Of a stretch of 64,000 bases of DNA, positions 39,514-57,705 are shown piece by piece. Numbering within the stretch: the first letter of the stretch is position 1; every line of letters begins with the position of its first letter. Made by a program: the position numbers and the translations under genes. This DNA is from Planctomycetales bacterium 10988 (GTDB lineage Bacteria > Planctomycetota > Planctomycetia > Pirellulales > Pb10988), in assembly GCA_009664345.1 (NCBI GenBank), contig CP043547.1:434001-498000 (forward strand), read 5' to 3'. The notes under the pieces were generated by a model. That model saw nothing but the letters and a program-made list of their open reading frames with translations. It ran no database searches and was not told where the DNA came from.

Positions 39514-42500
39514 CTATCGAATTCCTAGTCCGGTGAAGAGTTTATCAATTTTTTCTGAGGATTGATAAAATTCATCGACTTCGTCATACCAACTTTTCTT
39601 GGGTTTGAAAGTGTCAGTATTAACATTTTCTACACTCTCAGAAGTGTCAGATTTTGAAGTGTTTGAATGATTGACACTGTCAGATGTTAACAGGTTAGAA
39701 AATGGTGCTGACGTTGGTGAAGGGTCTTCGACGGGGAGGAGGCTGACGCCTCCGGTGATGAAGAGGCCGTCGGTGTTGCCCGGATCGCCAGAGAAGAAGT
39801 TGGAAAGATCGGAAAGATCAACGCCGCTGAAGCCACGCGTGTGTGGACCACCGGAGGAACCGGGGACGGTAATAATGTCGGCAAAGCCATCTTGATTTAA
39901 GTCAGCACTTCCCACCCGAACCCCACCGACGAAGTTAGGATGATAGGCGTAAAAGTTTTGCAGTGTCGAACCATCGGCGGAGCTGAAGGCTTGCACATGT
40001 GGACCTCCACCGGCACCGGGCGAAGTGATGATGTCATCGAAGCCATCGCCGTTCACATCGCCGGAAGCGACGTAAAGTCCGGTCAAAACATTCGGAGCGT
40101 AAGCATAAAAGTTGGTCACTGGACCGGGCATTTGCTCGCCGGTCATGCCGTTGATCACCCGAACATGAGGACCACCACCAGGACCAGCAGTCGTGATGAT
40201 TTCAGCGAAGCCATCGCTGTTGATATCACCGGTGGCAATGCGAACGCCGACGGTGACATTGGGTGCATAGGTATAAAACTCGGTAATCACGTTGCCAGTT
40301 AGCCCGTTATAAACCTTGAGGTGTGGACCTCCTCCGGAATCAGGAGCCGTGATGATGTCGTCGTACCCATCGCCATTCACATCGCCAGCCGCGACGAAAA
40401 CACCCGTTGTCACATTCGGGGCATAAGCATAAAAATTATTGAGCCCGCCCGTGATTAGCTGACCGGTCCGGCTATCGAAGACTTGCACATGTGGGCCACC
40501 GCCCGGTCCGGCAGCCGTGATGATATCAAGGACTCCGTCTCCATTGACATCACCGGTTGCCACACGAACTCCGCCGCTGAAGGCACCATAAGGCATAAAA
40601 CTCAAAAGTTCATTGCCGGAAGGATCGAAGACCCGAACAGTAGCAGGACCACCTGCATCGGTCCCGGTGACGATCAGCGATGTTTCGTCGATGGCGTTAT
40701 AGAGAATGGTCGCAGAATCGCCGACGTTTTCATTGCCCGCCTCATCTTCCGCGACTGCATCGGCCACTGTCACGGTGACACCGCCATCTTCCTCGTCTGG
40801 GGTGACTTCGAGAGTGTAAGTATTGTTATCAATGGTCGTAAACGTTCCAGCTGTCCCTCCCGTGACAACAATGTCACTTTCTTCAAAGCCGAACACTTCC
40901 TCAGAAAATTCAAAAGTAAAGAGAATCGGATCGTCGTTGCTTTCGCCACCATCAGGCGTGATCTCCAAAGTCGGAGCAGTTCCGTCATATTCAATAGTGG
41001 CCATCTCCACGAGATTTCCATTCCCGGCAGAATCTTGAGCGACATCATCCGCAACACTCGCGGTAATATCACCATCGGCATCTGGGGTAACGTCGATCGT
41101 ATAAGTATCCTCATCGACCATGGTGAAGTTACTACCAACCCCACCGGTGATGGTGATATCGCCTTCGATGAACTCAACGATCTCTTCGGAAAACTCCAAG
41201 GTGAACGTGATCGGGGTGTTGTTCGTGACTCCGCTATCGGGAGTGATGATCAATGTCGGAGCGGTCCCGTCATAGGTGACCGTGGCACTTTCAACTTGGT
41301 TGCCATTGCCAGCGGCGTCCGTGGCTCCATAGGCCAAAGCATTGACAATCACATCCCCATCAGCCATTGCGGTGACTTGTAGGGTATAGATATCGCCATC
41401 GACCATCGTGAAGGTGCCCTTACTGCCATTGATGACCATCACATCATCGGCAGTAAAGTCAAAGACCTCTTCAGAAAATTCGAAAGTAAAGACCGTCGTT
41501 GCCATGTTGGTCAAATCATTATCCGACGAAACAGCGACCGCCGGCGCGGTGCCGTCGTATTCGACCGTGGCCATGTCGCCGACGTTGTCATTCCCGGCAG
41601 CATCTTGGGCGACCATATCCGCGACCGTCACGGTGACATCGCCATCCGCGGTCGGCGTGACTGTGAGTGTATAAGTATTCCCATCGGTCGTACTGAAAAT
41701 GCCCTTGGTCCCATTGGTCACGACGACATCCTCGGTAGTGAAGCCGGTAACATCCTCGGAAAACTCAAACGTGAACAAGAGAATCTCAGAGTTGGTGATC
41801 GTTCCATCCGGCGTGATTTCCAGGGTTGGAGCCGTGCCGTCATATTCAATAGTCGCACTGTCACCTATCAGAAGATTCCCGGCGGCATCTTGAGCGACAT
41901 CATCCGCCACACTCACGGTAATATCACCATCGGCGTCCGCATTGACTTCGAGAGTGTAAGTATCGCCATCAATCGCGGTAAGAGTTCCCTTTGTACCATT
42001 CGTGACTTGAATAGCATCAATCGTAAAATCTGACACTCCTTCAGAAAATTCAAACGTAAAAACTGTCATCACTACGTTTGTAAGATTGTCATTTGGAGTG
42101 ATAACAACTGTCGGAGAAATACTGTCATAAACAACCGTGACACTCTCACCAACAAGCAAATTCCCAGCGGCATCTTCAGCGGCACCATCAGCTACTGTTA
42201 CGGTGGTTTCACCATCTGAGGTTGGAGTCACTTCAAGGGTATAAGTATCCCCATCAATCATAGTAAAGTTACTACCCGTCCCGCTGGTAATAACAATATC
42301 CGATTCAATAAAACCAACGATGTCCTCAGAAAATTCAAACGTAAAAAGAATGGGATTTTCATTTGTTGCATTGCCATTCGCCGTGACTTCTAGCATCGGG
42401 CCAGCAATGTCATAATCTAAGGTTGCAGAATCTCCTAAACTAAGATTCCCGACAAAGTCCTCGGCGGCATCGTCGGCGACAGTGACCGTGATTAGACCTT

Positions 42501-45387
42501 CGGAACTTGGAGTCACTTCAAGGGTGAAGGTATCACTATCAACAGCGATGAATGTCCCCTTGGTGCCTCCGGTGACTATAATATCGGTCTCATCAAAATT
42601 GTTTACAAACTCGGAGAACTGAAACGTAAAGGTGATCGGACTGTTGTTTGTCGCCCCACCTTCTGGCGTAATTTCCAGAGTGGGTGCTTCGGTATCTTCT
42701 AAGACCCATAATTCCTGTCCATGCAAGCCATCATGGGCTTGAAAGAAAAGAGTCCCATTCACATTCGTCAGATACTGGGGGAAAGAACCATTATTGCCTG
42801 TCCGGATATCCTTGACGAGATAGGTGCCTTCACTGGTTCCATTACTCATCCATAGTTCTTCTCCCGTCGAGCCATCGTTCGCCCGGAAGAACAAAGTCCC
42901 ATTTACATTGGTCAGAAACCAAGAGGAAGAATGTCCTATACCTGAGTGGATATCTTTGACAAGTTGAGTTCCTTCACTAGTTCCATCACTCCTCCATAGC
43001 TCAAAGCCCGTCGATCCATCATTGGCAACAAAGAAAAAGCTCCCATTTACATTGGTTAGACCTTGAGGAAGGGAGGTACTATTTGGACGAATGTCCTTGA
43101 CAAGTTGAGTTCCTTCGCTAGTTCCATCACTCTTCCACAGTTCTGTACCCGTCAATCCGTTGTTGGCCTGAAAGAAAAGTGTCCCATTCACATTCGTCAG
43201 ATTTCGCGGAAAGGAACTCATGGAACTTGGGGAAAGATCTTTAACAAACTGGGTGCCTTCAGAGGTGCCATCACTCATCCAGAGTTCTCTGCCTGACGAT
43301 CCGTCATTGCCTCTAAAGAAGAGTGTCCCATTCATATTGATCAGAAATTGTGGGGAGGAATTAGCACCACCTACGCGAATATCCTTGACGAGTTGAGTGC
43401 CCGCTTCGGTCCCATCGCTCATCCACAGTTCGAGGCCATAGGAGCCATCATTGGCTCGAAAGAAGAGAGTTCCATTAACATCGGTCAAATATTCGGGGTA
43501 AGAGCCGTTCCACTCGCCGGGTTGAATATCTTTCACAAGCTGAGTTCCCGATTCGGTCCCATCGCTCCTCCATAATTCCATTCCCGTCGATTCAATCCTC
43601 GCAACAAAGAAGAGCGTCCCATTCACATTGGTCAGATATCGAGGTAAAGAGCTATCCGACCACCCGGGTTGAATATCTTTGACCAGTTGAGTTCCCTCCT
43701 CGGTCCCATCGCTCCTCCACAATTCTTCGCCCGTCGACCCATCATGGGCCTGAAAGTAGAGCGTTCCATTCACATTCGTCAGAAACTGGGGGAAAGAACT
43801 AGCGGTACCTGGGCGAAGATCCTTGACAACTTGGGTGCCAATAGTGGTTCCATCGCTCCTCCAGAGTTCTGTTCCCGTCAATCCGTCATTTACTACAAAG
43901 AAAAGAGTTCCATTCACATCGGTCAGTTCTTGAGGGCCAGAACTCAGAGTACTTGTCAGGAGGTCTTTAACAACTTGGGTTCCAGCAGTGGTTTCATCGC
44001 TTCTCCAAAGCTCTGTACCCGTCGTTTCAGAGTTGGCTACGAATAAGAGTGTACCATTTACATTGGTTAGGGAGTGCGGACCATAAAAATCGTTGCCCGT
44101 CCAGATATCCTTGACGAGCTGGGTTCCCGCCTCGGTCCCATCACTCATCCATAATTCAATTCCTGTCGAATCTTCCCTAGCCCGAAAGAAGAGTGTTCCA
44201 TTCACATTCGTCAAATAGTATGGAGAGGATTGACTGTTGCCTGCCCAGATATCCTTAACAAGGAGGGTCCCCTCTTCGGTGCCATCACTCCTCCATAGCT
44301 CATCGCCCGTCGATCCATTGTTTGCCCGAAAAAACAAGGTTCCATTCATATTCATTAGAACCTTTGGAGAAGAACCGCTACCGGAGCGGATGTCTTTAAC
44401 CAGTTGTGTCCCTACTTCGGTCCCATCACTCCTCCATAGCTCTCTTCCGGTCGAGCTATCATGGGTAGAGAAAAATAAGGTGCCATTGACATTTGTCAGA
44501 TATCGAGGAGTCGAGTCATTCCCGCCGGAACGGATATCTTTGACCAGTTGTGTCCCTGCTTCGCTCCCATCGCTCCTCCACAATTCTTCGCCCGTCGACC
44601 CGTCATCCGCACGAAAGAAGAGTGTCCCATTCATATTCGCTAGATATCGGGGTACAGAACTTTTTCGCCAGCCGGAACGAATATCTTTGACCAGTTGTGT
44701 CCCTGCTTCGGTTCCATCGCTCTTCCACAATTCTTCGCCCACGGACCCGTCATTGGCACGGAAAAATAGGGTGCCATCAACATTCGTCAACTCTCGAGGA
44801 GTAGAGCTAAGACCGCCGGAAAGAATATCTTTGACCAGTTGTGTCCCTGCCTCGGTTCCATCGCTCTTCCAGAGTTCGTATCCCGTCGCTCTATCATTGG
44901 CCAGGAAAAATAAGGTGCCATCGATATTCTTCAACTCTCGAGGAGCAGAGCCATCTTCACCGGAACGAATATCCTTAACAAGTTGGGTCCCCGCTTCGGT
45001 TCCATCACTCCTCCACAATTCACTACCTGAGCTTCCATCGTTGGCACGGAAGTAGAAAATTCCATTGACATTCGTCAAATATTCTGGAGAGGAGCTACCA
45101 TCCAAACGTATATTTTTGACCAGTTGAGTCCCCGCCTCGGTTCCATCGCTCTTCCACAATTCTCTACCTGTCTGGCCATCGAGGGCAGAGAAAAAGATGA
45201 AGCCATTAACCTCGGTAAGCTCATCGGGATTGGAGGAACTTCCAATTTGATTAATATCGAGAAGGATAGGCTCCGCAGAGAGGAGGTGGCGATCTTCGAG
45301 GACTTCAAGTTGAAGAGGGGTGTCTTTTTGTTGGCGGGTACGGTGGGAGAGTTCGGAAGGTTGGGAGAAGGGGTTGAACCAAGTCAT
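39514..45387 (-). CDS. Giant surface protein: ELW repeats, Ig-like repeats, FG-GAP tail
   Basis: A protein of 1957 residues from ATG 45387 (a TTG at 45432 would add 15). Near the N-terminus LEVLEDRHLLS is a variant of the LEPR-XLL export motif. It is followed by 17 tandem ~47-residue units of pattern GxELWxSDGTxxGTQLVKDI...LTNVNGTLFF plus a partial unit, and then 7 Ig-like domains marked by TITPDG..N and FTFEFSE with acidic calcium-type loops. An FG-GAP region (GDVNGDGYDDIIT, GGGPHVxVF) and a charged tail complete it. It is presumably exported and anchored at the cell surface. The repeats are highly similar at DNA level, so the length may vary by recombination. A damaged inverted copy of its C-terminal part lies at 50.9-52.7 kb. 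Confidence 0.92.
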   Translation of the reverse strand: MTWFNPFSQPSELSHRTRQQKDTPLQLEVLEDRHLLSAEPILLDINQIGSSSNPDELTEVNGFIFFSALDGQTGRELWKSDGTEAGTQLVKNIRLDGSSSPEYLTNVNGIFYFRANDGSSGSELWRSDGTEAGTQLVKDIRSGEDGSAPRELKNIDGTLFFLANDRATGYELWKSDGTEAGTQLVKDILSGGLSSTPRELTNVDGTLFFRANDGSVGEELWKSDGTEAGTQLVKDIRSGWRKSSVPRYLANMNGTLFFRADDGSTGEELWRSDGSEAGTQLVKDIRSGGNDSTPRYLTNVNGTLFFSTHDSSTGRELWRSDGTEVGTQLVKDIRSGSGSSPKVLMNMNGTLFFRANNGSTGDELWRSDGTEEGTLLVKDIWAGNSQSSPYYLTNVNGTLFFRAREDSTGIELWMSDGTEAGTQLVKDIWTGNDFYGPHSLTNVNGTLLFVANSETTGTELWRSDETTAGTQVVKDLLTSTLSSGPQELTDVNGTLFFVVNDGLTGTELWRSDGTTIGTQVVKDLRPGTASSFPQFLTNVNGTLYFQAHDGSTGEELWRSDGTEEGTQLVKDIQPGWSDSSLPRYLTNVNGTLFFVARIESTGMELWRSDGTESGTQLVKDIQPGEWNGSYPEYLTDVNGTLFFRANDGSYGLELWMSDGTEAGTQLVKDIRVGGANSSPQFLINMNGTLFFRGNDGSSGRELWMSDGTSEGTQFVKDLSPSSMSSFPRNLTNVNGTLFFQANNGLTGTELWKSDGTSEGTQLVKDIRPNSTSLPQGLTNVNGSFFFVANDGSTGFELWRSDGTSEGTQLVKDIHSGIGHSSSWFLTNVNGTLFFRANDGSTGEELWMSNGTSEGTYLVKDIRTGNNGSFPQYLTNVNGTLFFQAHDGLHGQELWVLEDTEAPTLEITPEGGATNNSPITFTFQFSEFVNNFDETDIIVTGGTKGTFIAVDSDTFTLEVTPSSEGLITVTVADDAAEDFVGNLSLGDSATLDYDIAGPMLEVTANGNATNENPILFTFEFSEDIVGFIESDIVITSGTGSNFTMIDGDTYTLEVTPTSDGETTVTVADGAAEDAAGNLLVGESVTVVYDSISPTVVITPNDNLTNVVMTVFTFEFSEGVSDFTIDAIQVTNGTKGTLTAIDGDTYTLEVNADADGDITVSVADDVAQDAAGNLLIGDSATIEYDGTAPTLEITPDGTITNSEILLFTFEFSEDVTGFTTEDVVVTNGTKGIFSTTDGNTYTLTVTPTADGDVTVTVADMVAQDAAGNDNVGDMATVEYDGTAPAVAVSSDNDLTNMATTVFTFEFSEEVFDFTADDVMVINGSKGTFTMVDGDIYTLQVTAMADGDVIVNALAYGATDAAGNGNQVESATVTYDGTAPTLIITPDSGVTNNTPITFTLEFSEEIVEFIEGDITITGGVGSNFTMVDEDTYTIDVTPDADGDITASVADDVAQDSAGNGNLVEMATIEYDGTAPTLEITPDGGESNDDPILFTFEFSEEVFGFEESDIVVTGGTAGTFTTIDNNTYTLEVTPDEEDGGVTVTVADAVAEDEAGNENVGDSATILYNAIDETSLIVTGTDAGGPATVRVFDPSGNELLSFMPYGAFSGGVRVATGDVNGDGVLDIITAAGPGGGPHVQVFDSRTGQLITGGLNNFYAYAPNVTTGVFVAAGDVNGDGYDDIITAPDSGGGPHLKVYNGLTGNVITEFYTYAPNVTVGVRIATGDINSDGFAEIITTAGPGGGPHVRVINGMTGEQMPGPVTNFYAYAPNVLTGLYVASGDVNGDGFDDIITSPGAGGGPHVQAFSSADGSTLQNFYAYHPNFVGGVRVGSADLNQDGFADIITVPGSSGGPHTRGFSGVDLSDLSNFFSGDPGNTDGLFITGGVSLLPVEDPSPTSAPFSNLLTSDSVNHSNTSKSDTSESVENVNTDTFKPKKSWYDEVDEFYQSSEKIDKLFTGLGIR

Positions 45388-45929
45388 CGAGGAGTCTGCC
45401 TTGCGAAGAAGTGGAGGTAGGTTGAATGGCAATTTAATCTATGCATGATACCTTTTTCTACAAGGCAGGTAAACGGCAAAGGCCAACTTCTCCTAAAATT
45501 CACCAGTTTTATTAATCCAGCAAAAACTTGCAGCGTTACCGTGTCTTCCTGTAATCGACCATTCCTTAACCATCTACAGCCATCGCCCTACGGAAATAAG
45601 AGTCTGTCAGTACCGAGAACATTCGCGATATCTGTAGAGAAGGGTTGATGCACAACGGGGTTAAGACAAATCTGCTTGATGACCAAAATGCTGAACTACG
45701 ATCGATCAAGTTTCAATCAGATGGAAAAATTGTTTTATGCCCTGGCCTCAGTTCTATCCTCTATTGAGTCTAATTCGTCATAAGTTCTTCTATGACAGGG
45801 ATTAAGTCTGTAGGAATTGTCGCGATACCGCAGCCAAAAAGTTCAACTGGTGTCCAGTCTCCCCGATTCTTTCCTAAATAATTTAATAACAACCACTTAC
45901 GGCAAAGTCATCTATTTGGCTTTACCGTT
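45388..45929. other. Intergenic region
   Basis: No gene recognised upstream of the giant surface protein. Probably contains its promoter; none could be assigned. The far end runs into the recombinase remnant. Confidence 0.4.
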
Positions 45930-46400
45930 TTTTATGCGCCGGAGATACCTTCGATGATACCTTTTTGGCGAAATTTGGGGTAATTTCGCCCTGATATTTT
46001 CCATCATGGTAAATGTATTTTTCCTTCTTCGAATCACCGAATAGCGAGCAGCCACAATGTCCGCAGGAGATCATTCGAGCGAAGGCAAAGGTTTTCCTGC
46101 CATTGGGCTTCTCCTAGTGGCTTGCCAGCCTCTCATTTAATCTTATCTTGAGTTTTTATCTTGAAAGTAGTTGCCGTGGTGTACCAGATACAGGACGACC
46201 GATCATTACCCTTTCGTTTCTATGGCAAGTCCTCCTCCAGTGCTTGCAGACCCTTTCCCAGATACATCTTCTCCTTGCCATGCCTCTCAAACATCCGAAT
46301 AATTTTCGACTCAACTTCGAAGTCAGGAATGACGACTTTCTTCCCTTTCGATTACTCGACATTTAGCTCCCCCATCGGAACCTTGCTGGGGCAAATCACC
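45930..46400 (-). pseudogene. Remnant of a serine recombinase
   Basis: Reading the minus strand, about 46110-45950 encodes FAFARMISCGHCGCSLFGDS followed by KKEKYIYHDGKYQGE, which is the zinc-ribbon segment of large serine recombinases. About 46370-46200 encodes VIPDFEVESKIIRMFERHG, matching the recombinase-domain helix that normally precedes it. The pieces are in different frames with internal stops, so the gene is dead. Sequence up to 46780 may contain more of it but is too decayed to assign. It is unrelated in detail to the recombinase at 5863. Confidence 0.6.
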
Positions 46401-46782
46401 TGTTCGGCATTCTTAAGCATCCTTATTTGAGACTTCAATGAGGTTGTCGACTTATTATTCAACGACATCGATACCCTACTCGTCGGCATAGCCTCGGAGA
46501 AAATTATACTACGTGGCAATCGGGAACCCCCTTTTTCTCCTACTCACCAGACGAGTCACGAGCGTACATTTCGGCCGGAAATAGATTGGTGGTGAACTGA
46601 CGGCCAACCGCATGGACCTAGTTCTGTCGATGAAGACCCTTCTACCTTTCGGTGGTGGAAATGTCTTTGATGTAGTCCATACCCGGTTGCGTTTCCATCT
46701 TTCAGCTCAGCTGATAGATGGCGAAGTTACTCAAGCCGGGGATGGGATCATCCACGCCCTGGCTATAAACACTGGTAAGAGG
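46401..46782. other. Decayed DNA, possibly more recombinase remnant
   Basis: No intact frame. Short minus-strand stretches hint at the N-terminal part of the recombinase remnant, but none is long enough to support a call. Confidence 0.3.
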
Positions 46783-48780
46783 CTATTCTTCTCCGGTCTC
46801 AGAAGTAGCATTCGAGTAGCTGCGAACAGACATTTCCCATAGGTCGAAACCGTACTCCTCTCGAACGACCGTCATTCGCATGACGTCAGTTGTTCCGTCC
46901 GCAATCCGCAGCCCCATGAGATCACGCACTCGGTCTCCAAGGTCGACGTCGCGGCTGTATCCCAACGCACCGTGCGCACGCATTGCCTCATCGCAAGCCG
47001 CCAATGCTATCTCAACCCCTTCGGCCTTGATGCCATTGACGAGGGGTTCCGCAGCGTCAAAGTCACCTCGGTCGTACAATCGAGCTGCCTCCCGCGCCAG
47101 TGCCAATGCCATTCGTAACTTTGTCAGATTCTCTCCAATCGGTTGTTGAAGGTGTGTAAAGCGGCCAATCGGTCCGCCAAAAACATGACGCTGACGGATT
47201 CGCTCTGCCATGATCTCCAGTGCCCGTTCGCCACAACCGATGGCTGCACCCGCCTGCATCAACCTCCAATAAAGGAAATGTTCCTTGAAGATTTCCCCTC
47301 CTTCGCCGTCCTTCCCGATCAAATGCTCGGCACCAACATACATTTTGTCGAACTTCAGTCCGCCAAAGGAGTTTCCTGTCAGACCGTGTGCATAGCGATC
47401 AACGATTTCCAGACCCGGATGATGAATCGGAAGTAGAAATGCAGTCCTGTCATCGGAAGATCCATCAGCCGACGACGTGTAGAGAACAACGTGAGTTGCC
47501 TGACGCAGACGGGCGTTCCACAACTTCGATCCGGACAGACGAAATCCCTCGCCGTCCTTCACAGCCCGACTTTGCATGCTTTTCGTATCTGTCCCTGCAT
47601 TCTCCTCTGTGATCGCGACTGCAAAATATGCGTTCCCGTCGACAAGTTGTTTGAGCGCGGCATTTGCGACAGATGAATCCATCTTCACCGCTGGTCGCCC
47701 ATGAGCTCCTCCAACTACGTCTCGCAGGTTTAGGTTATAACGTCCGGCGTGACGGAATATCTCCAACATCTGCTGCGCATTCCAACCACTTCCGCCAACC
47801 GCTACCGGCAAGTCCAACCCTGGCAGCCCAAAGACGGCACCACGGCTACGCCACTCTCGCGGCGACGTCAGCTTTCCTTCAGATCGGAGTTGTTCGGCAA
47901 GTTCGTCAATCTCGGTCTTTACCTGATTGACAGTCAATAGATAAGCAGAAGTGGGCCCCTGCTCAGATAGGACGAGACGCGCCTTGAAAACCGTGTTGAG
48001 TTCCAGAACACTCGAATTCGCCGACATCCGTCCTGGGCTTTCCAAAAACACTCGTTTATAGTTTTTATAGTTGACAGAAGGTGAATCGCGTTTCTCGACT
48101 TTGAATTGGTAGTCCTTCATCGGTTTGCCTGGATTCAAAACGCGAATCTGGGTGTCGACGTGGTCCTTTAATAGCACGAAGTGTCGGCCAAGCGTCTTTC
48201 CATCAGCTGTCGTGACCGTGTATGCCAATATGCATAACTCGCCTCCTCGAATGACGAGATCAGGCCCATCGCTATCCGACCAGTATGGGCCGGTTTTGGT
48301 GTACTCACTATTTCGGGCGGACAAGACATCAGCTCGAATGTCGTATTCGGGGATTTGGTCTGAGAGCCAGCCAAGGAGGTCGACGAACCGTTTGTTGGTG
48401 ATTCGTCCTCTCTTCAGCTTAGGATCTCTTTGGAATAGCAGTAGTGCGTACTGATGAGGTTGAGGATGCAGCGGCTGACCAGCCATTGACCTAAGTGTCT
48501 GCATCGCAATCAAAGCTGCTGAGATCGGGCATGCCCCACCCCCGTCAGAATCGATTAAAGAATCGAGTTCCCCCTGGCGAACAATGACCGGAGTCTCGCT
48601 GGAGTGGGCATCCTGAACCGACCGAATCGCGTATGTTGGCGATGCCAATTGTCGGTTCGATTCAGCCCAAGCGATCAACTCATCAGACTGAGCGTAAGAT
48701 GTCCATATGGCACTGGATAGCAATATTACCACGGCCTGTGTAAAACCATGCCACTTGCCGATAAAAAAGATCGTATTCAT
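46783..48780 (-). CDS. Secreted/anchored protein with C-terminal acyl-CoA dehydrogenase domain
   Basis: A 665-residue protein read from ATG 48780; an upstream ATG at 48816 would bury the signal sequence. An N-terminal signal-like helix (FTQAVVILLSSAIWTSYAQS) is followed by a ~230-residue domain with DSDGGGACPISAALIAMQTL and HFVLLKDHVDTQIRVLNPGK, which resembles a papain/C39-like fold (Cys with a later His). From ~330 to the end is a full acyl-CoA dehydrogenase: ITEENAGTDTKSM, LSGSKLWNARL, the GGPIGRFTHLQQPIGENLTKL helix and the C-terminal ADGTTDVMRMTVVREEYG. ACADs are normally cytosolic FAD enzymes, so fusion to an export signal is odd. No frameshift joins the parts in this reading. Confidence 0.75.
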   Translation of the reverse strand: MNTIFFIGKWHGFTQAVVILLSSAIWTSYAQSDELIAWAESNRQLASPTYAIRSVQDAHSSETPVIVRQGELDSLIDSDGGGACPISAALIAMQTLRSMAGQPLHPQPHQYALLLFQRDPKLKRGRITNKRFVDLLGWLSDQIPEYDIRADVLSARNSEYTKTGPYWSDSDGPDLVIRGGELCILAYTVTTADGKTLGRHFVLLKDHVDTQIRVLNPGKPMKDYQFKVEKRDSPSVNYKNYKRVFLESPGRMSANSSVLELNTVFKARLVLSEQGPTSAYLLTVNQVKTEIDELAEQLRSEGKLTSPREWRSRGAVFGLPGLDLPVAVGGSGWNAQQMLEIFRHAGRYNLNLRDVVGGAHGRPAVKMDSSVANAALKQLVDGNAYFAVAITEENAGTDTKSMQSRAVKDGEGFRLSGSKLWNARLRQATHVVLYTSSADGSSDDRTAFLLPIHHPGLEIVDRYAHGLTGNSFGGLKFDKMYVGAEHLIGKDGEGGEIFKEHFLYWRLMQAGAAIGCGERALEIMAERIRQRHVFGGPIGRFTHLQQPIGENLTKLRMALALAREAARLYDRGDFDAAEPLVNGIKAEGVEIALAACDEAMRAHGALGYSRDVDLGDRVRDLMGLRIADGTTDVMRMTVVREEYGFDLWEMSVRSYSNATSETGEE

Positions 48781-49641
48781 AACAGATTCCCAGGAGATTG
48801 CTCTCAGATCCCGCATTGATCTAATGCTGGCCGAGTTTACGGCATCATATCACTTCACTCTCGCGAAAAGAGAAGTGGTTGTGACAGCCACTTGTCGCCC
48901 AATAGATGACGATAAAGATTATTATATTGTTTGCAGTAAGAATGATCGACCAACGAGATAGGTATCGGCTTGTAGGTTCATTTACAATTTCTCATCGCCA
49001 CAACCCAATAATAGTTACCTTCACCAGCAACGTAGACGTTAATACTTGAAGTTGAACCGGCAGTTCCCCAGCGAATTGGAGCTTGTAACGAATAGATATC
49101 ACTGGATTCAACTGCGAATCCACGCTCAAGCGTTTGTGAAAAACTCTTCATGCCACATACCTCTCGCATGGGTAGGGTTTTCCAGAAGCGGCACAGTGTC
49201 ATCCCTTCCTACATGTTTGGATAGGACCGACCACGGCTGGTCCATCCTCGTCAATTGGGGCAAACCGGCGGGTCGTTCAAACCACACCCGAATCGTGCAA
49301 ACAGATCGTTACACTCGATGCGGCAGGATACAATCACGTGAGTATTTCCAGCATCGCCAAACTTGCGTAATGCATGTTCACACTAATAACATCTGGGCAA
49401 TCCTCTTGAACTTCATTAATGTACTTATCATTCGGTGGCGAGGTATAAGCGTCCGAGCCCGTTCGCTTGAGCCCTTCTGACTCAACATGCTTTGCTGTGA
49501 CCACCTTCAAACTCAGCAAGCTAGAATCACCAGGTTGCAGAAAGTTTTATCCGAACCACAAATCCGATGGATGCCGCAGCGTCCATCCGCATCAACGCGA
49601 AGGCCGATGTCGACGAATGACATACAATAGAAAGAAGGCTA
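48781..49641. other. No recognisable gene
   Basis: About 860 bp between the ACAD fusion and the IS630 element. Short minus-strand ORFs (49202-48978, 49519-49334) look partly protein-like but have no family features or ribosome sites, and are probably remnants of a gene lost next to the IS. Confidence 0.4.
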
Positions 49642-49649: not shown

Positions 49650-50345
49650 TCAGGATTTACTTTTTGGGTAGAGCGACTTCAGTTTGATTCGGGCGTCTGT
49701 GACTTGGAATTGCCAGTCCACCGTGCGTTGTTTTTTATTGGAGGGGTCGGACCAGGCCTTGGTTTCCGTTCGCAGGCGCTGGACGGATTCGAAGCGACGA
49801 CCGCTCACGCACTGCCGGGTCATCGTGCTCAGTTCGTTTTCGGCAATGTTGAGCCAGCTTCCGTGCTTTGGCGTCCGGCGAAATTCAATCCGTCTGACCA
49901 AGCGACGAGCTTCCTCGGCCGGAAACGTTTCGTAAAAGGCTCCTTGGGTGTGCGTGTTCAGATGATCGCAGACCAGGATCACCTTTCGGGCGGAGCGATA
50001 CCGTGTTGTCAGAAGTCGTTTTATTTCCATGGCCCAGTCCACTTTGGTACGTCGATCGCGAACGCGGACTTCGCGCCAGCCTGAGAGCGGTTCGGTGAAC
50101 ATGAAGACGCTGGCCGTTCCGCAACGTTCGTATTCGTAGTCGACACGACGAGCATGTCTCCGGGTGGCCGGGATCGGCCGACGGATTTCCTGGTGAAGCT
50201 GAACGGGTTGTTCATCCATGCACAGCACCGGATAATCGCTGTGGTAAGGTTCTTCGTAGGTATCCAGCACTTCTTCCATCGACGCAATGAATTCGGCATC
50301 GGCACCCGGAGGGATCACCCAGTACTGGACCTTGCGTTGGGTCAT
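49650..50345 (-). CDS. IS630 transposase, catalytic part (OrfB)
   Basis: A 231-residue frame with the DDE core: CMDEQPVQLHQEIRRPIPAT (first Asp), ILVCDHLNTHTQGAF (second Asp) and GSWLNIAENELSTMTRQCV (Glu). It starts at an ATG that overlaps the OrfA stop (ATGA, 50342-50345). Production by coupled initiation or by -1 frameshifting at the A7 run just upstream are both possible. Confidence 0.88.
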   Translation of the reverse strand: MTQRKVQYWVIPPGADAEFIASMEEVLDTYEEPYHSDYPVLCMDEQPVQLHQEIRRPIPATRRHARRVDYEYERCGTASVFMFTEPLSGWREVRVRDRRTKVDWAMEIKRLLTTRYRSARKVILVCDHLNTHTQGAFYETFPAEEARRLVRRIEFRRTPKHGSWLNIAENELSTMTRQCVSGRRFESVQRLRTETKAWSDPSNKKQRTVDWQFQVTDARIKLKSLYPKSKS

Positions 50346-50868: not shown

Positions 50869-52657
50869 GTTTAGGAGATTCTACAACCTTAGTTTATGAC
50901 CTAACAAGCCCGATGCTAGAAGTCACGGCGGACGGTAATGCAACAAACGATAATCCCATTCTTTTCACGTTTGAATTTTAGAAAACATCATTGGTTTTAT
51001 TGAATCGGATATTGTCATCACCGGCGGGACGGGTAGTAACTTTACTATGATTGATGGGGATACTTATACTCTTGAAGTGACTCCAACCTCAGATGGTGAA
51101 ATCACCATAACAGTAGCTGATGAAGCCGCTGAAGATGCCGCTGGGAATTTGCTAATTGGTGATAGTGCTACAGTTGTTTATGACAGTATTTCTCCGACGG
51201 TTGTTATCACTCCGAATGACAGTCTAACAAACGTGGCAACTACTGTGTTTACATTTGAATTTTCTGAAGAAGTGTCAGATTTTACGATTGATGGTATTCA
51301 AGTCACCAATGGTACAAAGGGGATTTTTACAGCTATTGATGGCGATACCTATACTCTTGATGTCACCCCGAATGAAGAAGATGGCGATGTCACCGTGACG
51401 GTTGACGATGCCGTTGCGGAAGATCAAGCAGGCAATGGAATCGTGGGAGATTCTGCAACCATTCACTATAACGCCATCGACGAAACCCCGTTGATTGTCA
51501 CCGGGACCGATGCAGGTGGTCCTGCTACTGTTCGGGTCTTCGATCCTTCCGGCAATGAACTTTTGAGTTTTATGCCTTATGGTGCCATCACTGGCGGGGT
51601 TCGTGTCGCGACGGGCGATATCAACGGTGATGGGATACTCGATATCATCACGGCTGCCGGACCGGGCGGTGGCCCACATGTGCAAGTCTTCGATAGCCGG
51701 ACCGGACAACTAATCACGGGCGGGCTCAATAACTTTTATGCCTATGCTCCGAATGTAACAACGGGTGTTTTCGTGGCGGTGGGCGATGTGAACGACGATG
51801 GGTACGACGATATCATTACCGCTCCCGATGCCGGTGGCGGACCGCATTTAAAAGTTTACAACGGCGAAACGGGCGACGTGATTACCGAATTTTACGCCTA
51901 TGCTCCCAATGTCACCGTCGGAGTTCGCATTGCCTCTGGCGATATCAACGGCGATGGCTTTGCCGAAATTATCACGACTCCTGGTCCTGGTGGTGGTCCC
52001 CATGTTCGCGTGATCAACGGCATGACCGGCGAGCAAATGCCCGGTCCAGTGACCAACTTTTATGCTTATGCCCCGAATGTCTTAACCGGCCTTTACGTTG
52101 CTTCGGGCGATGTGAATGGTGACGGCTTCGATGATATCATCACTTCTCCAGGTGCTGGCGGTGGTCCGCATATTCAAGCCTTTAGCTCCGCCGATGGTTC
52201 AACACTGCAGAACTTTTACGCCTATCATCCGAACTTCGTTGGTGGCGTTCGCGTCGGTACGGCGGACCTCAACCAAGACGGCTTCGCCGACATTATTACG
52301 GTGCCCGGTTCTTCCGGGGGCCCTCACACCCGAGTTTTCAGCGGTGTCGATCTTTCTGATCTTTCCAACTTCTTCTCTGGACCGCCGATCAACACTGATG
52401 GCCTGTTCCTCGCTGGTGGCATCAGTTTTCTTTCGATTGAAGACCCCGTCCCAACCTCGGCACCATTTTCTAACCTGTTAACATCTGACAGTGCCGAGAA
52501 TTTAAACACCTTAAAAAATGATAATTCTGACACTATAGAAAATATCAAATCTGACACTTTCAAGACTAGGAAAACATGGTGGGATGACGTCGACGAATTT
52601 TATCAGTCCTCAGAAAAGATTGATAAATTATTTACCGGCCTAGGAATTAATGAATAA
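50869..52657 (+). pseudogene. Truncated inverted copy of the surface protein C-terminus
   Basis: From 50869, immediately after the IS630 end, the plus strand is closely similar to the reverse complement of the Ig-like/FG-GAP part of the gene at 39514-45387. The first ~100 bp (SPMLEVTADGNATND) carry a 2-bp deletion near 50980 that stops the frame. After that an ORF from 51047 runs to 52657 (536 aa): one and a half Ig-like repeats joined directly to the FG-GAP region and the ending SEKIDKLFTGLGINE. Four Ig-like units present in the full gene are missing, so two distant repeats have been fused. No export motif remains; inactive as a surface protein. Confidence 0.85.
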
Positions 52658-52924: not shown

Positions 52925-53839
52925 GTGGCAGAACTCATAGCATCTGAAGTGTCGATTGAAGAGGAACGTGGGGTCTTGTTGAGAGCCCTCAGGCAGCATC
53001 AGGAACTGGAAAACGAGCCTACCCGGATCACCGAATTACGAAAAGACTTGCCAGAACGCTTTCGGCTGCCGGAAGAGCAAATTGAGGAAATTGTTACCGA
53101 TCTCGTTCAGCAAGGTAAAGTCTTCCGCTTCGAGCCTTACAATTCTCGCGGGGCAAAGAAGCGATACCGCTATTGGTTTGGAAATCCTGAGGAGTATGCA
53201 GCCCTCTTGATACAAGAGCAATTGTCAAAGAAAGTCCGAACACGCTCTGAACTAAAAGCAGCAATCAAAAATCGGCTTGGTGGTTTTTCAGAATCTCGGC
53301 GGGACCAGTTGATCAAGAAGTTAATTGAAGAGGGAACTATTCGAGAGTTGCCTCCTTTTCTCGGCGGTCGGACGAAACGCTTGAGTTTAGGCAAGCCCAA
53401 CCCTCAAGAGTATCTACAGCACGCCGTTGACAAGATTCAACATCTTCTTACTCGTTACGGTATAACCGAGCAGGAAGTCTCCAAAGTCCTCTTCCAGATG
53501 ATCGGAAGCTCCGCATCTAGCCCCTCTCAAATCCCTCCTGTTGAGAAACCTCAGCAATCAACCAGAGAACCTCTTTCGCAGAAGATTTTGCAACGGGCCG
53601 CTGAACTCGAAAGTGGGGTGAGTGGGTCGGTTATCTCCGTAAGAGAACTTCGTCAGGCGAGCGATTTTCTCACCCACTCGAAGCAAGAATTTGATCAAGC
53701 CCTGCTTAAATTGGCGGAAGAAGAAAAAGTTTACTTGCATCGGCATGACCGACCCATGGGGTTATCTGAGAGTGATCGCGAACAACTCGTTTTTGATGGA
53801 AAGAATAATTATTACTCATCTGTTTCTGTGCTAGATTGA
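52925..53839 (+). CDS. Winged-helix-like protein, first gene of ATPase/nuclease-translocase operon
   Basis: A 304-residue protein starting with GTG 52925 behind AGGAG. It appears to contain three tandem winged-helix-like units: ~20-80 (ITELRKDLPERFRLPEEQIE, VTDLVQQGKVFRF), ~105-150 (RTRSELKAAIKNRLGGFSE, then LIKKLIEEGTIREL) and ~230-285 (SVRELRQASDFLTHSKQEFD, LLKLAEEEKVYLHRH), with a polar linker between the second and third. The repeated layout suggests DNA binding or scaffolding. I do not recognise the family. The next gene starts 7 bp downstream, so the three genes form one operon. Confidence 0.7.
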   Translation: MAELIASEVSIEEERGVLLRALRQHQELENEPTRITELRKDLPERFRLPEEQIEEIVTDLVQQGKVFRFEPYNSRGAKKRYRYWFGNPEEYAALLIQEQLSKKVRTRSELKAAIKNRLGGFSESRRDQLIKKLIEEGTIRELPPFLGGRTKRLSLGKPNPQEYLQHAVDKIQHLLTRYGITEQEVSKVLFQMIGSSASSPSQIPPVEKPQQSTREPLSQKILQRAAELESGVSGSVISVRELRQASDFLTHSKQEFDQALLKLAEEEKVYLHRHDRPMGLSESDREQLVFDGKNNYYSSVSVLD

Positions 53840-53846
53840 GGAAATC

Positions 53847-55826
53847 ATGGATCGCCTAAAGTCTCTAAAGTCAATGCCGAATCCTTTTGAAAGCACGGTT
53901 GTCAAAGATGCTTGGCAGCAAGATACTATTGATGTTCCTGTTATTCATCAGGCACAATTCCAAAGTTGTCAACGGTTAATTGAAAGCGTTAGTCAAAATG
54001 GTACGACAGAATCCCTGCTGATTTTTGGAGAAACCGGGAGTGGCAAAACGCATCTTTTGAGAAGGCTTCGTGCCCAGCTTCTTGATAGTGAAAATTTCAA
54101 TGAAGGTCCCACCTCGAGCCGTGCCCTCTTTATTTATATGAAATTGCAGACAAGCCCTCGCATGATTTGGCGTGCCCTGCGTCGTCAATTCGCGACGGAC
54201 TTGCTCCGATCAACCTCTCGAAAGATTTCTCAATTAGAAACCCTGCTTGCAACGCGTTTTGCACAGGAACTAGGTATTTCAAGCGATCCGATCGATTGGT
54301 GGCTGGATTTTCGACAACAACATTCCTCAATGGACAGCCTGCGAGATCACATATCTGATCTATTTGAGGAGTTGAATACCAACATTTCTTATAATCTCAG
54401 AGTGGCCCTGACTCTCCTGCTCATGGGACATCATCGAGCAGATGCGAAGGCTTGGCTGCGGGGAGATATGTTACCCGACGCTATCTTAGAGGCGATGGGA
54501 CTGAGTAGCCATCAGCATGAAGAAGTTGAATTAGAAGATGAAGCGAAGATGTGCGTGTTACATCTTTGTAGTCTCGCTGGTCGGAGCACTTGTTTTGTTA
54601 TCTGTTTCGATCAGATTGAAGCGCTTCAGCAAAACATCAATGACCGTGCAGGACTGTCAGCTTTCGGGAACATGGTCGTTACTCTTTATCATAACACTAC
54701 AAATCTCAGCCTGATTTCATGTATTCAAACAACCCTTCAGCATGAATTAAAAGAAGCATTACACGAATCGGATTATCAAAAATTATCTGCATTCGGTAAA
54801 AACATCTTTCTACAAACATTGAAGTGGGAAGACGCTTTCGAACTAGTAAAAGCTCGCTTGCAGGCGTCGCATGACCTTTGGGAATTACACAAATCCGACC
54901 CTTCGTTGGGAGGGCTTTGGCCGCTTTCAGAAGCCGAGGTCCAAAAGCTTTGTCCGATCCCCGCCCGGAAGTTGATTTGGAACTGCCGCGAACTGTTTGA
55001 AAAAGCTCGTAATAAACAAGTTCCGATCATTCCGGTGGAAGAGTTCCTGAGAAATTCGCTCAATGAGAGTCTGGAAAGCTGTCTCGCGGATTCCAATCCA
55101 GCACAAACCACCGAGGTGCTTGAACACGGCTTATTGCAGCTTGAGGATTTTACAACCGAAAACTGGGAGGTCAGCAAGCTTGAGGATTTAAGGGACGTGG
55201 ACCTCCTTCTTTCCGGGAAAGACGGCAACATTGGGGTCAGTTTTTGTAATGAAGCGAGTATGAACAGTTTGTGTCGTCGCTTAAAGCGGTTGCGAGATCA
55301 AGCCAAGGATAAACGCTTTCAAAAACTCGCCATTCTCCGCGATCCAAGAATTCCGATTACTCCGACCGCCAAAGCGGCCAATCAATATCGCAAAGAATTG
55401 TTAGAGAAAACAAGCACGAATTTTCTTACCCCAAGCTTGGAAGCGATCGCCGCACTCGATGCCATTCGAAAACTGCTCTCGGATTCGAAAGCTGGAGACC
55501 TTTCCTTGCAAGGGGAATCCATTGAACCTGATAAAGTGAAATCGTGGTTGTTAGATAATCTTCCTTTTGAGTTAGATGATTTTTTGAAAGATGTGTTATC
55601 GGCACCGATGATCTATCCTCCTCATTATGAATTAGTGGAAAAAATTGCCGAACTTGTGGAAGATCAATATTTGCTCGATTTAACTACAGTGGCGAATCAC
55701 TTAAAAGAATCGATCACAACCTTACAAAATTGTATTGATAAACACCCCCAACGATTTGGCCTTCTTGATGGCAAGGCAAAAGTCGTCTATCAACTCGTTC
55801 CTGAAAATTTTAAAACTATCAATTAG
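53847..55826 (+). CDS. AAA/STAND-like ATPase, second gene of operon
   Basis: A 659-residue protein. Walker A is GETGSGKT (~60-67), and the Walker B region is CFVICFDQIEAL (~248-259), within an ORC/AAA_16-like P-loop domain; a sensor-like segment LSLISCIQTT follows. The C-terminal ~280 residues are helical and not recognised, with a hydrophobic patch LRDVDLLLSGKDGNIGVSFC. It may load or regulate the translocase encoded next, as many ORC-like ATPases do for DNA machines, but that is inferred. The following gene starts 10 bp downstream. Confidence 0.75.
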   Translation: MDRLKSLKSMPNPFESTVVKDAWQQDTIDVPVIHQAQFQSCQRLIESVSQNGTTESLLIFGETGSGKTHLLRRLRAQLLDSENFNEGPTSSRALFIYMKLQTSPRMIWRALRRQFATDLLRSTSRKISQLETLLATRFAQELGISSDPIDWWLDFRQQHSSMDSLRDHISDLFEELNTNISYNLRVALTLLLMGHHRADAKAWLRGDMLPDAILEAMGLSSHQHEEVELEDEAKMCVLHLCSLAGRSTCFVICFDQIEALQQNINDRAGLSAFGNMVVTLYHNTTNLSLISCIQTTLQHELKEALHESDYQKLSAFGKNIFLQTLKWEDAFELVKARLQASHDLWELHKSDPSLGGLWPLSEAEVQKLCPIPARKLIWNCRELFEKARNKQVPIIPVEEFLRNSLNESLESCLADSNPAQTTEVLEHGLLQLEDFTTENWEVSKLEDLRDVDLLLSGKDGNIGVSFCNEASMNSLCRRLKRLRDQAKDKRFQKLAILRDPRIPITPTAKAANQYRKELLEKTSTNFLTPSLEAIAALDAIRKLLSDSKAGDLSLQGESIEPDKVKSWLLDNLPFELDDFLKDVLSAPMIYPPHYELVEKIAELVEDQYLLDLTTVANHLKESITTLQNCIDKHPQRFGLLDGKAKVVYQLVPENFKTIN

Positions 55827-55836
55827 GATTCTCCTT

Positions 55837-57705
55837 ATGACAGTCAGTCTTCCCGTGCGAGAAATCTCCGGTGAGATCTACCGAGTTGCCAAGCAAGCCG
55901 GCGATGGACGTCCATCAACGATGTTTTTAGGACAAATCTTTCATGAAGTCTTTGCCGAATTGACGAGTTCTTGCTCCGATCGAAACTTTCAGTCTGCCTT
56001 GATTGATGCGGACCCTACACTTGAGGATTGGCAATCGAAGCTTCGTCATCATCTCTATCAGAAGCTGGTCGGTCCTCGTCTTCGCCGTCATCATAACGCT
56101 TTACAAGAAAGTTCAGAGCAAGTCATCGATTTTTGGTCAGCCGTGAAGGACCTGGGGGATTGGTTTGCCGATGTTCTGTTCTCGGCCTATGAAAAATCGA
56201 AAAGCTCCAATACCGAAGCCTTTTTGCAAGGCATCGCCGAAGGGATCGACTCGGAAGAACCCCTGAGTTGGGAACTTCGCCAGCCTGATTGGACCGACTC
56301 GGTTCGTGTGCACGGAATTGCCGATTGCATCTGGAGAATTCCCCAATCCGAGAAATGGTGCTTGGTTGAATTCAAACTTGGAAAGACTTCCCCGGAATCC
56401 GACTTGGCTCAAGTTTGTTTGTATCATCACCTCTTGGAGAACCAAACCGGCAAAGCTGGCCCTCTAGCATTAATGAGTTTCAAACCAACAAAAACGGAGC
56501 AATTCTTCTCTGTGGAGCAGTTGAAAGAGGTACAAAATAGCCTCATCGCTCTCATCGGGAGTGTTGCAGGAGTCCTTCCTACTGCAACCCCTGACCCCCT
56601 TCCTAAACCAAAGCCCAGTTCATCTGAATCGATCTCTCAACTAGGAAAGAAACTACTTGCAGCCTTGGAAGAGTATGGTGCTCCATGTTCTCTGTCTGGC
56701 GATCCGATCGTTGGACCGACGTTTATTCGGTTTCCCCTCATTATGGGAACAAAAGTAAAGTACAGCACCCTCACGAAACACGTAAAAGAATTTCAATTTC
56801 GTCTAGGATTAGACGAACCACCGATCATCGGGGCGAGTAGCGGTCGAGTGGTGATCGACGTTCAGCGTCCGAAGCGTGATACCGTACTCTTCACGGACCT
56901 TGAAGCCGACTTAAAGAAAAAGGAAACCTCCTTCGGGTCCTCGAATATTCTTTTGGGAGTTGACCTAGAAGGGAGGCTCCATTTCGCGGATCTAGCAGAA
57001 CCAGAAAACGCCCATATGCTGGTGGCCGGCACTACCGGGAGTGGAAAAACGGAATGGATTCGGTCGGCCATCGCCTCATTATTACTTTTAAACACGCCTG
57101 AAACACTGAAGTTGATCCTGATCGATCCGAAACGCAATGCCTTCCACGAACTTAAAGGCTCCCCCTTTCTAGATAATGAGAATTCAATCGTTTATCCTGA
57201 TGAGCAACCGGTTGCCGAAGTATTGGAGATGCTTGTCGAAGAGATGGAAGAAAGATATCGCATGATCGAAGGCTATGATCATCTAGCGGAATATGTCCAA
57301 GACACTGGCAATAAAATTCCTCGGATCATTTGTATCTGCGATGAATATATGGACCTGATGTTACAAGATTCCGCACAACGGAAAGAACTGGAACGATTGA
57401 TTTCTCGGCTCGGAGCAAAAGCTCGGGCGGCGGGCATTCATCTTATCTTGGCAACTCAGCGTCCGGATAAAAAAACGGTAACAGGTCACATCAGTACGAA
57501 TTTACCAGCCCGAGTTGGTTTAAAGTTAGACGGAGGAATCGAGTCCCGGATGATCATCGACGCCAATGGTGCGGAAAATCTGCTGGGTCGAGGGGACCTT
57601 CTCTTTAAAAGCATCGGACCTCCCAAGCGCCTTCAATCCCCCTACCTTCCCCCGGAAGCCAGAAATTCTTTGTTTAAAGCGAAAGTTTCCATTCCTGTAA
57701 AATAA
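55837..57705 (+). CDS. RecB/Cas4-type nuclease fused to FtsK-like DNA translocase
   Basis: A 622-residue protein from ATG 55837 (the ORF from 55735 overlaps the previous gene). The N-terminal domain has every mark of the RecB/Cas4 PD-(D/E)xK family: IFHEVFAEL (His36), HGIADCIWR (Asp163), CLVEFKLGK (Glu178, Lys180) and QVCLYHHLL (Gln192, Tyr196). No Fe-S cysteine set is seen. From ~350 a FtsK/SpoIIIE motor follows: Walker A GTTGSGKT (398-405), LILIDPKR, Walker B IICICDE (497-503), then LILATQRPDKKTVTGHI. It lacks FtsK's membrane and KOPS-reading parts. It should pump and cut DNA, assisted by the ATPase and winged-helix protein. The fusion, with three complete motif sets, argues for an active nuclease. 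Confidence 0.85.
   Translation: MTVSLPVREISGEIYRVAKQAGDGRPSTMFLGQIFHEVFAELTSSCSDRNFQSALIDADPTLEDWQSKLRHHLYQKLVGPRLRRHHNALQESSEQVIDFWSAVKDLGDWFADVLFSAYEKSKSSNTEAFLQGIAEGIDSEEPLSWELRQPDWTDSVRVHGIADCIWRIPQSEKWCLVEFKLGKTSPESDLAQVCLYHHLLENQTGKAGPLALMSFKPTKTEQFFSVEQLKEVQNSLIALIGSVAGVLPTATPDPLPKPKPSSSESISQLGKKLLAALEEYGAPCSLSGDPIVGPTFIRFPLIMGTKVKYSTLTKHVKEFQFRLGLDEPPIIGASSGRVVIDVQRPKRDTVLFTDLEADLKKKETSFGSSNILLGVDLEGRLHFADLAEPENAHMLVAGTTGSGKTEWIRSAIASLLLLNTPETLKLILIDPKRNAFHELKGSPFLDNENSIVYPDEQPVAEVLEMLVEEMEERYRMIEGYDHLAEYVQDTGNKIPRIICICDEYMDLMLQDSAQRKELERLISRLGAKARAAGIHLILATQRPDKKTVTGHISTNLPARVGLKLDGGIESRMIIDANGAENLLGRGDLLFKSIGPPKRLQSPYLPPEARNSLFKAKVSIPVK

Follow-up and report, generated by a model that had tools for sequence, protein, structure and literature searches.

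Acyl-CoA dehydrogenases (ACADs) are regarded as cytosolic enzymes that depend on coenzyme A (CoA) and are linked to electron-transferring flavoprotein (ETF), and both CoA and flavin adenine dinucleotide (FAD) are cytosolic; we know of no ordinary member of the class that is exported. The wider superfamily, which takes in isobutyryl-, isovaleryl-, short-chain and butyryl-CoA dehydrogenases, the prolyl-carrier-protein dehydrogenases PigA and RedW, and ColB1, was compared here with the product of a gene at 46783-48780 (minus strand) of a 64,000-nucleotide stretch of Planctomycetales bacterium 10988 (contig CP043547.1), called the window below. Another relation is nitroalkane oxidase, which acts on nitroalkanes and, by the title of a reference cited in PMC3509576, is homologous to acyl-CoA dehydrogenase. 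The window gene very probably encodes a signal-like stretch, a papain-like domain (the N-domain) and an ACAD fold in one chain. Both parts come from known superfamilies. The features are given below, with residues numbered from the ATG at 48780.

46783-48780, minus strand: whole gene for the two-domain protein (665 residues), from the open frame and homologues.
48691-48780, minus strand: signal-peptide-like stretch, about residues 1-30, from hydropathy; cleavage placed after ...TSYA by inspection.
47956-48690, minus strand: papain-like cysteine-enzyme domain, about residues 31-275, its last element the ELNTVF strand; from model m98267414a417 and structure matches.
48529-48531, minus strand: Cys84, putative nucleophile in the GGGAC motif (36/36 rows).
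48181-48183, minus strand: His200, putative catalytic histidine in the GRHF motif (35/35 readable rows, one row having X).
48133-48135, minus strand: Asn216, putative third residue (over 36 rows: 22 Asp, 10 Asn, 2 Glu, 1 Ser, 1 X).
46783-47943, minus strand: ACAD-fold domain, about residues 280-665, from Pfam, PDB sequence matches and structure rows spanning model residues 280-650.
47509-47514, minus strand: Ala423-Arg424, predicted to lie beside flavin N5 (31/31 family rows).
46897-46899, minus strand: Asp628 of IADGTTD, occupying the site of the catalytic glutamate of ACADs (31/31 family rows).

An earlier note, made from the letters of the window, had described a single uninterrupted frame and offered two explanations for it, an unusual periplasmic or anchored enzyme or a recombination event that had fused two genes. 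The frame was confirmed and assigned a strand, which the note had left out: 46783-48816 on the minus strand is free of stops and contains both quoted motifs, DGGGACPISAAL and HFVLL. Of its two possible starts, the ATG at 48780, where the gene had been placed, is likelier than the in-frame ATG at 48816, which would give 677 residues. The decayed surroundings and the presence of a transposase might suggest a fusion that is accidental or artefactual in this one genome, but the same fusion was read without interruption at 27 planctomycete loci (the window's among them, duplicates removed) and at one, L048, in another phylum, and the ratio of nonsynonymous to synonymous change (dN/dS) was low in both domains. 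An accident confined to this genome is accordingly given a negligible probability: the recurrence of the architecture led to rejection of a recent recombination event, and the homologues, together with selection on both domains, ruled out a sequencing error that joined two genes.

By the Nei-Gojobori method, dN/dS was 0.05-0.19 in those domain comparisons, 13 of 14, whose synonymous distance (dS) was finite; six of these concern the N-domain (0.08-0.17) and seven the ACAD domain (0.05-0.19). The synonymous distance between the N-domains of the window and L082 was saturated, and the L085/L086 pair is nearly identical, its ratio coming from few changes. Judged by these ratios, both domains are under purifying selection.

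The homologues were gathered in several searches. In the home genome no second copy of the fused gene was found at E<=0.001, and this single match ruled out a paralogue there as donor. A search of 57 genomes of relatives, home included, returned one other near full-length relative (G050, 46% identity), the remaining matches among those listed being ACADs at no more than 30% identity. The N-domain was found in 5 of 392 genomes across the phylum (home included), in 6/170 of the family of G080, in 21/241 of the family of G431, and at eight loci of a named genome collection, including those of Gimesia, SV_7m_r, Rhodopirellula JC639 and Aporhodopirellula aestuarii; these search sets overlap. A second copy in genome G446/G971 (contig C227) is known from its match row alone. 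Among these planctomycete matches the N-domain was never seen as an intact separate gene, and two loci were broken, L092 in its ACAD frame and L095 by truncation of the N-terminus. Plasmid carriage was rejected, as the PLSDB plasmids matched the ACAD part alone; at E<=1e-20 there were 7 such records, each with no more than 30% identity and with less than 80% of the query covered. Viral carriage was likewise rejected, since 0 of 79 pattern matches in viral contigs encode a relative, although distant relatives could escape a pattern-based search. A search limited to open-access literature, and so weak evidence of absence, found nothing, judged by titles and the beginnings of abstracts, on an exported acyl-CoA dehydrogenase or on one linked to defence islands or to anti-phage systems of planctomycetes. 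Nor did anything join acyl-CoA dehydrogenase to a phytochelatin synthase fusion or to the cyclic-oligonucleotide-based antiphage signalling system (CBASS), beyond one genome paper that is unrelated by its title, and no paper came up on a papain-like CBASS accessory with a signal peptide.

The N-domain was modelled with AlphaFold2 from eight sequences, giving a mean predicted local distance difference test score (pLDDT) of 85.8. Comparison of the model by VIA-align matched it to phytochelatin synthase Alr0975 (Z 11.7, root-mean-square deviation (rmsd) 3.5, 155 residues aligned), IdeS/Mac-1 (Z 11.4, rmsd 3.8, 193 aligned), staphopain C (Z 11.2, rmsd 3.4, 155 aligned) and the C39 domains of PCAT1 (Z 9.8) and ComA (Z 9.3), within a run of many clan CA chains from Z 11.7 to 9; we take all the structural matches to be papain-like enzymes of this clan. 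Z values within 1 of each other were treated as tied, so no closer assignment is justified. With the clan CA enzymes the N-domain shares the fold, a cysteine at the start of a helix (Cys84 is residue 55 of the domain model and opens its long helix 54-70), a histidine before a strand and an Asn/Asp in the next strand. It differs from them in its sequence, with 6-16% identity over the aligned residues, in the lack of an oxyanion glutamine at -6, and in having GGG before the cysteine. The order Cys-His-Asn/Asp was found, with Asn or Asp at position 216 in 32 of the 35 readable rows. No Pfam family matched the N-domain, neither Peptidase C39 nor phytochelatin synthase among them, when the window protein was scanned at E<=1 (first 298 residues of the 677-residue frame) and the N-domain protein of L043 at E<=0.01; none of the best 60 of 90 PDB sequence matches covers it, all of them lying in the ACAD part. 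The description "papain/C39-like" is therefore supported by the fold, in clan CA, and by no Pfam match. On the model and the conserved residues, the N-domain probably acts as a papain-fold thiol enzyme.

The presence of an ACAD domain was borne out. The Pfam middle and C-terminal domains scored above their gathering cut-offs (Acyl-CoA_dh_M 48.2 bits against 33.3; Acyl-CoA_dh_1 94.7 bits against 22.4), and the N-terminal domain, Acyl-CoA_dh_N, was weak at 14 against 22.9, below its cut-off. Residues 281-637 matched isobutyryl-CoA dehydrogenase at Z 38.3 (rmsd 3.0, 351 aligned), and the superfamily members named at the outset have the same fold at Z 35.6-38.3 and 17-24% identity (50 rows listed). 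The best NCBIfam score was 118.5 bits against a cut-off of 575, and scores were far below every cut-off listed, so no functional subfamily name applies.

For comparison of residues, 31 family rows were set against 16 ordinary planctomycete ACADs, these being 16 of the 18 loci L003-L020 after L006 (stops) and L007 (contig start) were left out. The position of Asp628, which we take to be that of Glu376 in medium-chain acyl-CoA dehydrogenase (MCAD), is occupied in the ordinary set by Glu in 9, Asp in 5, Gly in 1 and Ser in 1. A check of the base glutamate, which had been called for, thus found the carboxylate kept and the residue changed, being Asp in 31/31. At the position of Ala423, presumably that of MCAD Thr168, which contacts flavin N5, ordinary ACADs have Ser (10) or Thr (6 of 16), followed by Asn (11), Ser (3) or Gly (2). 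The canonical combination of a Glu base with Ser/Thr beside flavin N5 is consequently absent from all 31 rows, which have Asp628 and Ala423. Arg506 is invariant in the family (31/31) and in the ordinary set; Ala627, Asp628, Gly629 and Asp632 are invariant in the 31 family rows; and Arg353, Asp354, His360, Arg362, Tyr504 and Trp505 are invariant in the family and in the minority or absent in ordinary ACADs. The likeness to the superfamily accordingly lies in the two Pfam domains, the carboxylate base, Arg506 and the glycine after the base, and the difference in the signal-like start, the papain-like partner, the Asp base and Ala-Arg in place of Ser/Thr-Asn. In nitroalkane oxidase, an oxidase of the ACAD superfamily whose likeness to this protein is one of description, the base is also an aspartate, Asp402; the enzyme is fungal and is without a peptidase fusion.

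One explanation of these substitutions is that the ACAD domain is a dead scaffold, or a sensor of FAD, acyl groups or CoA released by lysis, which controls the papain-like domain. The replacement of the flavin-side Ser/Thr by Ala in 31/31 and of the base by Asp would agree with this, as would the survival of the N-domain where the ACAD has been lost or is absent (L046, L049 and L050, in the second phylum). Against it, Asp is found at the base site in 5/16 ordinary planctomycete ACADs, the invariance of Arg506, Ala627, Asp628, Gly629 and Asp632 suggests retained chemistry, and dN/dS of the ACAD domain is as low as that of the N-domain; a scaffold or sensor is judged very unlikely. Ala423-Arg424 and the pattern of invariant residues argue instead that the domain has kept its chemistry, with a polar substrate in place of a fatty acyl-CoA, and is not dead; they suggest a specialised substrate, perhaps other than a CoA ester.

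A signal-peptide-like N-terminus, as had been described for the window protein, proved general: a hydrophobic stretch precedes the first domain in 30/30 family proteins with a complete N-terminus. The best 11-residue hydropathy in the family was 1.85-3.33 (at least 2.2 in 29/30), whereas the 16 ordinary ACADs reach at most 1.74 when 45 N-terminal residues are scanned and at most 1.81 when the scan extends to residue 110, the lowest family member, L089 (1.85), lying close to the highest of these. The family was scanned over up to 110 residues because several mechanically called open reading frame (ORF) starts lie too far upstream; limited to the first 45 residues, 8/30 family proteins fall below 1.85, since those ORF starts precede the real start. 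A twin-arginine consensus was not general in the family on inspection of the N-termini, which makes Sec export likelier than the twin-arginine (Tat) route; FAD would then be bound outside. From its hydrophobic N-termini, the protein is apparently exported.

If the N-terminus were not a signal peptide, the protein could be a cytosolic, CoA-using dehydrogenase, in keeping with the cytosolic location of FAD and CoA and with our knowing of no exported ordinary ACAD. The signal-like N-terminus in 30/30, found also on separate ACADs of the second phylum, speaks against this, as do the 16 ordinary ACADs, all below the family minimum, though L089 comes near their top (1.81). A cytosolic dehydrogenase is considered highly improbable. 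Of the two explanations first offered, the unusual exported enzyme therefore gained support, with export as a prediction, from the recurrent architecture and from signal-like starts that include those of separate ACADs.

The second phylum contains the parts in several forms, the N-domain being present in 9 of 368 genomes of the phylum of L043 (Deltaproteobacteria bacterium AM_0619; Myxococcota by tree-tool label). At L043 two genes that overlap by one base encode the parts, an ACAD (435 residues) and an N-domain protein (265 residues), and the ACAD is 44% identical to that of the window over 362 aligned positions. Separate adjacent pairs, in the order ACAD then N-domain, were read at L043/L044, L045 and L047, the reverse of the domain order in the fused protein; by genome, the ACAD gene lies directly upstream of the N-domain gene in G442, G732 and G735 (cut by the contig end in G735). 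Both parts are fused in G669 (L048, 663 aa). ACAD remnants alone stand ahead of an intact N-domain gene in G733 and G734, no ACAD was found ahead of the N-domain gene of G731 within the stretch read, and the distant relatives L051 and L052 have the N-domain only. The separate ACADs with complete 5' ends (L043A, L047A) also start with a signal-like stretch, as, judged by eye, do the N-domain genes of L043 and L047.

Separate genes for the two parts had been named as a finding that would speak against a true fused enzyme. Such genes do exist in the second phylum (L043/L044, L045, L047), but they are adjacent and at L043 and L047 both have signal-like starts, so that the reading of an exported ACAD is strengthened. 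Fused or adjacent, and with signal-like N-termini, the parts point to a common extracytoplasmic task. Since some lineages retain the N-domain without the ACAD, this domain may be able to act alone.

As to neighbouring observations in this phylum, the ACAD/N-domain genes of L043 adjoin an AAT-type Ntn-hydrolase and a DUF547 protein (1713-4421; signal-like starts by eye), and AAT-like ORFs, recognised by eye, also adjoin L046, L049 and L050. At L049 and L050 the ACAD gene is down to remnants and the neighbouring N-domain gene is intact.

Up to two genes (at least 120 aa) on each side of the 27 planctomycete loci, 103 proteins in all, were scanned with PADLOC models, leaving out the broken loci L092 and L095 and the duplicates L053 and L096. 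The control was 100 proteins from 20 random regions in ten of the same genomes, with five genes per region against at most four for the targets; ORFs were called mechanically, longest first, and both sets include some spurious neighbours. At E<=1e-10, 276 models were hit in the 103 neighbours and 8 in the 100 control proteins, a count in which several models can match one protein. At least 19/27 loci had any PADLOC model, against 4/20 control regions (Fisher p 7e-4; 2e-3 on collapsing related loci), and at least 17/27 had a core defence model, against 0/20 (p 3e-6; 2e-5 collapsed). The core count leaves out general models on both sides, and thereby L081 (GajA) and L090 (mad3/AriA). Scans of single proteins gave a match to any model at E<=1e-10 at 17 loci (L026, L027, L028, L037, L038, L039, L042, L081, L083, L085, L087, L088, L089, L090, L091, L093, L098); L084 and L086 were counted too because the set scans show three reverse-transcriptase members. 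The control hits, nine in number, came from five proteins at 4/20 regions and were to an RtcR-type activator, a LolE-type CARF model, mad3, SspH and mad8; in our own description the proteins are a sigma-54-type activator (L103), two ABC-type transport proteins (L112), an FtsK-type protein (L113) and an ATPase (L117). The neighbours of the fused gene vary between loci and are for the most part defence genes, as follows.

Type I restriction: L027, L042, L093 and the broken locus L092.
PDC-S18: L037, L038.
PDC-S06: L028.
E1-type ThiF/JAB gene with DUF6527: L026.
CBASS-type nucleotide cyclase or effectors: L039, L087, L098.
Reverse transcriptase: L085, and relatives at L084 and L086.
QatA: L083.
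BrxA: L088.
MzaB: L091.
HmaA/DrmD/BrxH-type helicase: L089.

Single PADLOC scans (E<=1e-5 or E<=1e-10) were negative for the DUF6527 gene of L026, window 52925-53839 and 53847-55826, L036 12161-12562 and 12804-13565, L083 3206-4615, L093 8127-8909, L097 1051-3777 and 5825-7309, L090 11960-15346 and L082 11714-12937. At 17/27 loci the preceding ORF is co-directional and lies within 180 nucleotides (nt) or overlaps, a count from mechanical ORFs and without a control. The preceding gene is itself a PADLOC hit in L037, L042, L085, L087 and L098. As a statement on location, "defence-associated" can be made with high confidence; a functional part in defence is possible but doubtful.

The reading favoured overall, which we hold to be nearly as likely right as wrong, is that of an exported two-domain enzyme that is an envelope-side defence accessory or a stand-alone defence gene. 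After export to the periplasm, the N-domain, with Cys84-His200-Asn/Asp216, would be a thiol hydrolase or transferase of papain fold, and its substrate would be of the peptide, amide or thioester type. The ACAD domain would bind FAD outside the cytoplasm and oxidise a polar substrate or the product of the N-domain, Asp628 taking the alpha-proton and FAD the beta-hydride. Since we know of no ETF partner outside the cytoplasm, the reduced flavin (FADH2) would probably pass its electrons to O2, with formation of H2O2, or to an acceptor in the envelope. Chemistry of the oxidase type as such is unlikely; independence from the cytosolic CoA and ETF pools belongs to the favoured reading. Feeding of an acyl-enzyme thioester on Cys84 into the ACAD site was considered and not adopted, a surface cysteine being without the long pantetheine arm. 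The interface of the domains lies beyond the reach of the full-length model (mean pLDDT 78, predicted template-modelling score (pTM) 0.55). As the planctomycete gene travels with, and often just downstream of, unrelated anti-phage systems, a role as an envelope-side accessory or as a stand-alone defence gene would be the most likely one. Distinctly unlikely, in its full form, is a mobile envelope-side accessory in which an exported thiol hydrolase and a CoA-independent ACAD-fold flavoenzyme are joined to CBASS, restriction, bacteriophage exclusion (BREX), reverse-transcriptase and ubiquitin-like systems and carry out a periplasmic reaction, for example an oxidative or acyl-modifying one, on the envelope or the entering phage.

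Several observations weigh against the favoured reading. A Foldseek search of the PDB with the N-domain model gave no match at E<=0.001, so the class of this domain rests on the VIA-align Z values and the conserved residues; an oxyanion Gln six residues before the Cys occurs in only 2/36 rows, a glycine-rich stretch standing there instead. The N-domain is kept where the ACAD has decayed or was not found upstream (L046, L049, L050), and the two activities need therefore not be coupled. The list of core models was drawn up after the hits were known, which makes the any-model count the fairer one, and 8/27 loci (the window, L029, L030, L036, L040, L082, L094 and L097) have no PADLOC hit on record, single scans covering part of their neighbours. 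The two second-phylum neighbours that were scanned (the AAT hydrolase and the DUF547 protein; Pfam only) are not defence genes. Finally, the gene is rare, being present in 5/392 genomes of the phylum (the home genome counted), and it stands beside defence genes of many kinds, so that it may be mere island cargo.

One alternative is an exported metabolic enzyme without a defence role, acting on a secreted or scavenged peptide-like or N-acyl compound, its siting in islands being that of mobile cargo. It would agree with the hydrolase and DUF547 genes beside L043 and the AAT-like ORFs by L046, L049 and L050, with the spread of close copies (window, L026, L082) over different families and orders, which transfer of cargo would be expected to produce, and with upstream partners that differ wholly between loci. 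The neighbourhood bias, however, holds against random regions of the same genomes, and the gene starts no more than 180 nt from, or overlaps, a preceding same-strand gene at 17/27 loci, that gene being a PADLOC hit at the five named above. A purely metabolic role is regarded as a real but minority possibility. Should the favoured reading be true, the conserved exported branch, with its fused and paired genes, would show the ACAD fold working outside the CoA and ETF pools. The system is compact, with one gene, two domains and clear point mutants, and because it recurs beside unrelated anti-phage systems a defence role can be tested directly; to our knowledge, few defence proteins are exported.

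Trees of the N-domain and of the ACAD domain, in which 6 of the 16 ordinary ACADs were used, group the window with L026, L027/L036, L082 and L097 (99/97 and 94/93). By search-tool labels the members belong to different families and to two orders, a spread that horizontal transfer would be expected to give. In the ACAD tree the fused L048 clusters at 98/97 with the separate ACADs from the same phylum, under a warning by the tool that its long branch may join falsely, and its placement beside the separate genes in the N-domain tree has no resolved branching. The history may be one of ancestral fusion and later splitting, or of two independent fusions.

Upstream of the window gene lie the following features.

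48836-49635, minus strand: decayed DUF6527-like and ThiF(E1)-like remnants, broken by frame changes and by stops within them (tblastn E 1e-9 and 2e-34).
49650-50345, minus strand: transposase (DDE_3) ORF, just upstream of the remnants.

Intact copies of DUF6527 and ThiF are present in L026, a relative; there a JAB-ThiF fusion and a DUF6527 gene form a pair (11628-13378) immediately upstream of the counterpart of the window gene, at a distance of 40 nt. The open-access literature search returned nothing on DUF6527.

Elsewhere in the window, a CRISPR array of about 25 repeats (32-nt repeat) lies at 18885-20520 and is followed by a cas region to 28714 (about 21000-28714), with Cas8c/Csd1 at 23717-25564 and Cas3 at 26423-28714 on the minus strand, a type I-C-like system 18-28 kb from the fused gene. 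At 33283-38188 the RgpF profile is matched at 263-383 and then 387-503 across two overlapping ORFs, beside WsaF and a glycosyltransferase domain; one gene is apparently split there by a frame change. Coding regions for large repeat proteins at 39514-45432 (minus strand) and 51047-52657 (plus strand) are homologous and flank the segment of the fused gene in inverted orientation, with 80.5% DNA identity over 1689 nt and 86% over 518 nt. Three successive genes at 52925-57705 encode a protein of 304 aa without assignment, an AAA ATPase of 659 aa and an FtsK/SpoIIIE-domain protein of 656 aa. Just downstream of the fused gene, at 46100-46780, an interrupted coding-like stretch was recognised by eye.

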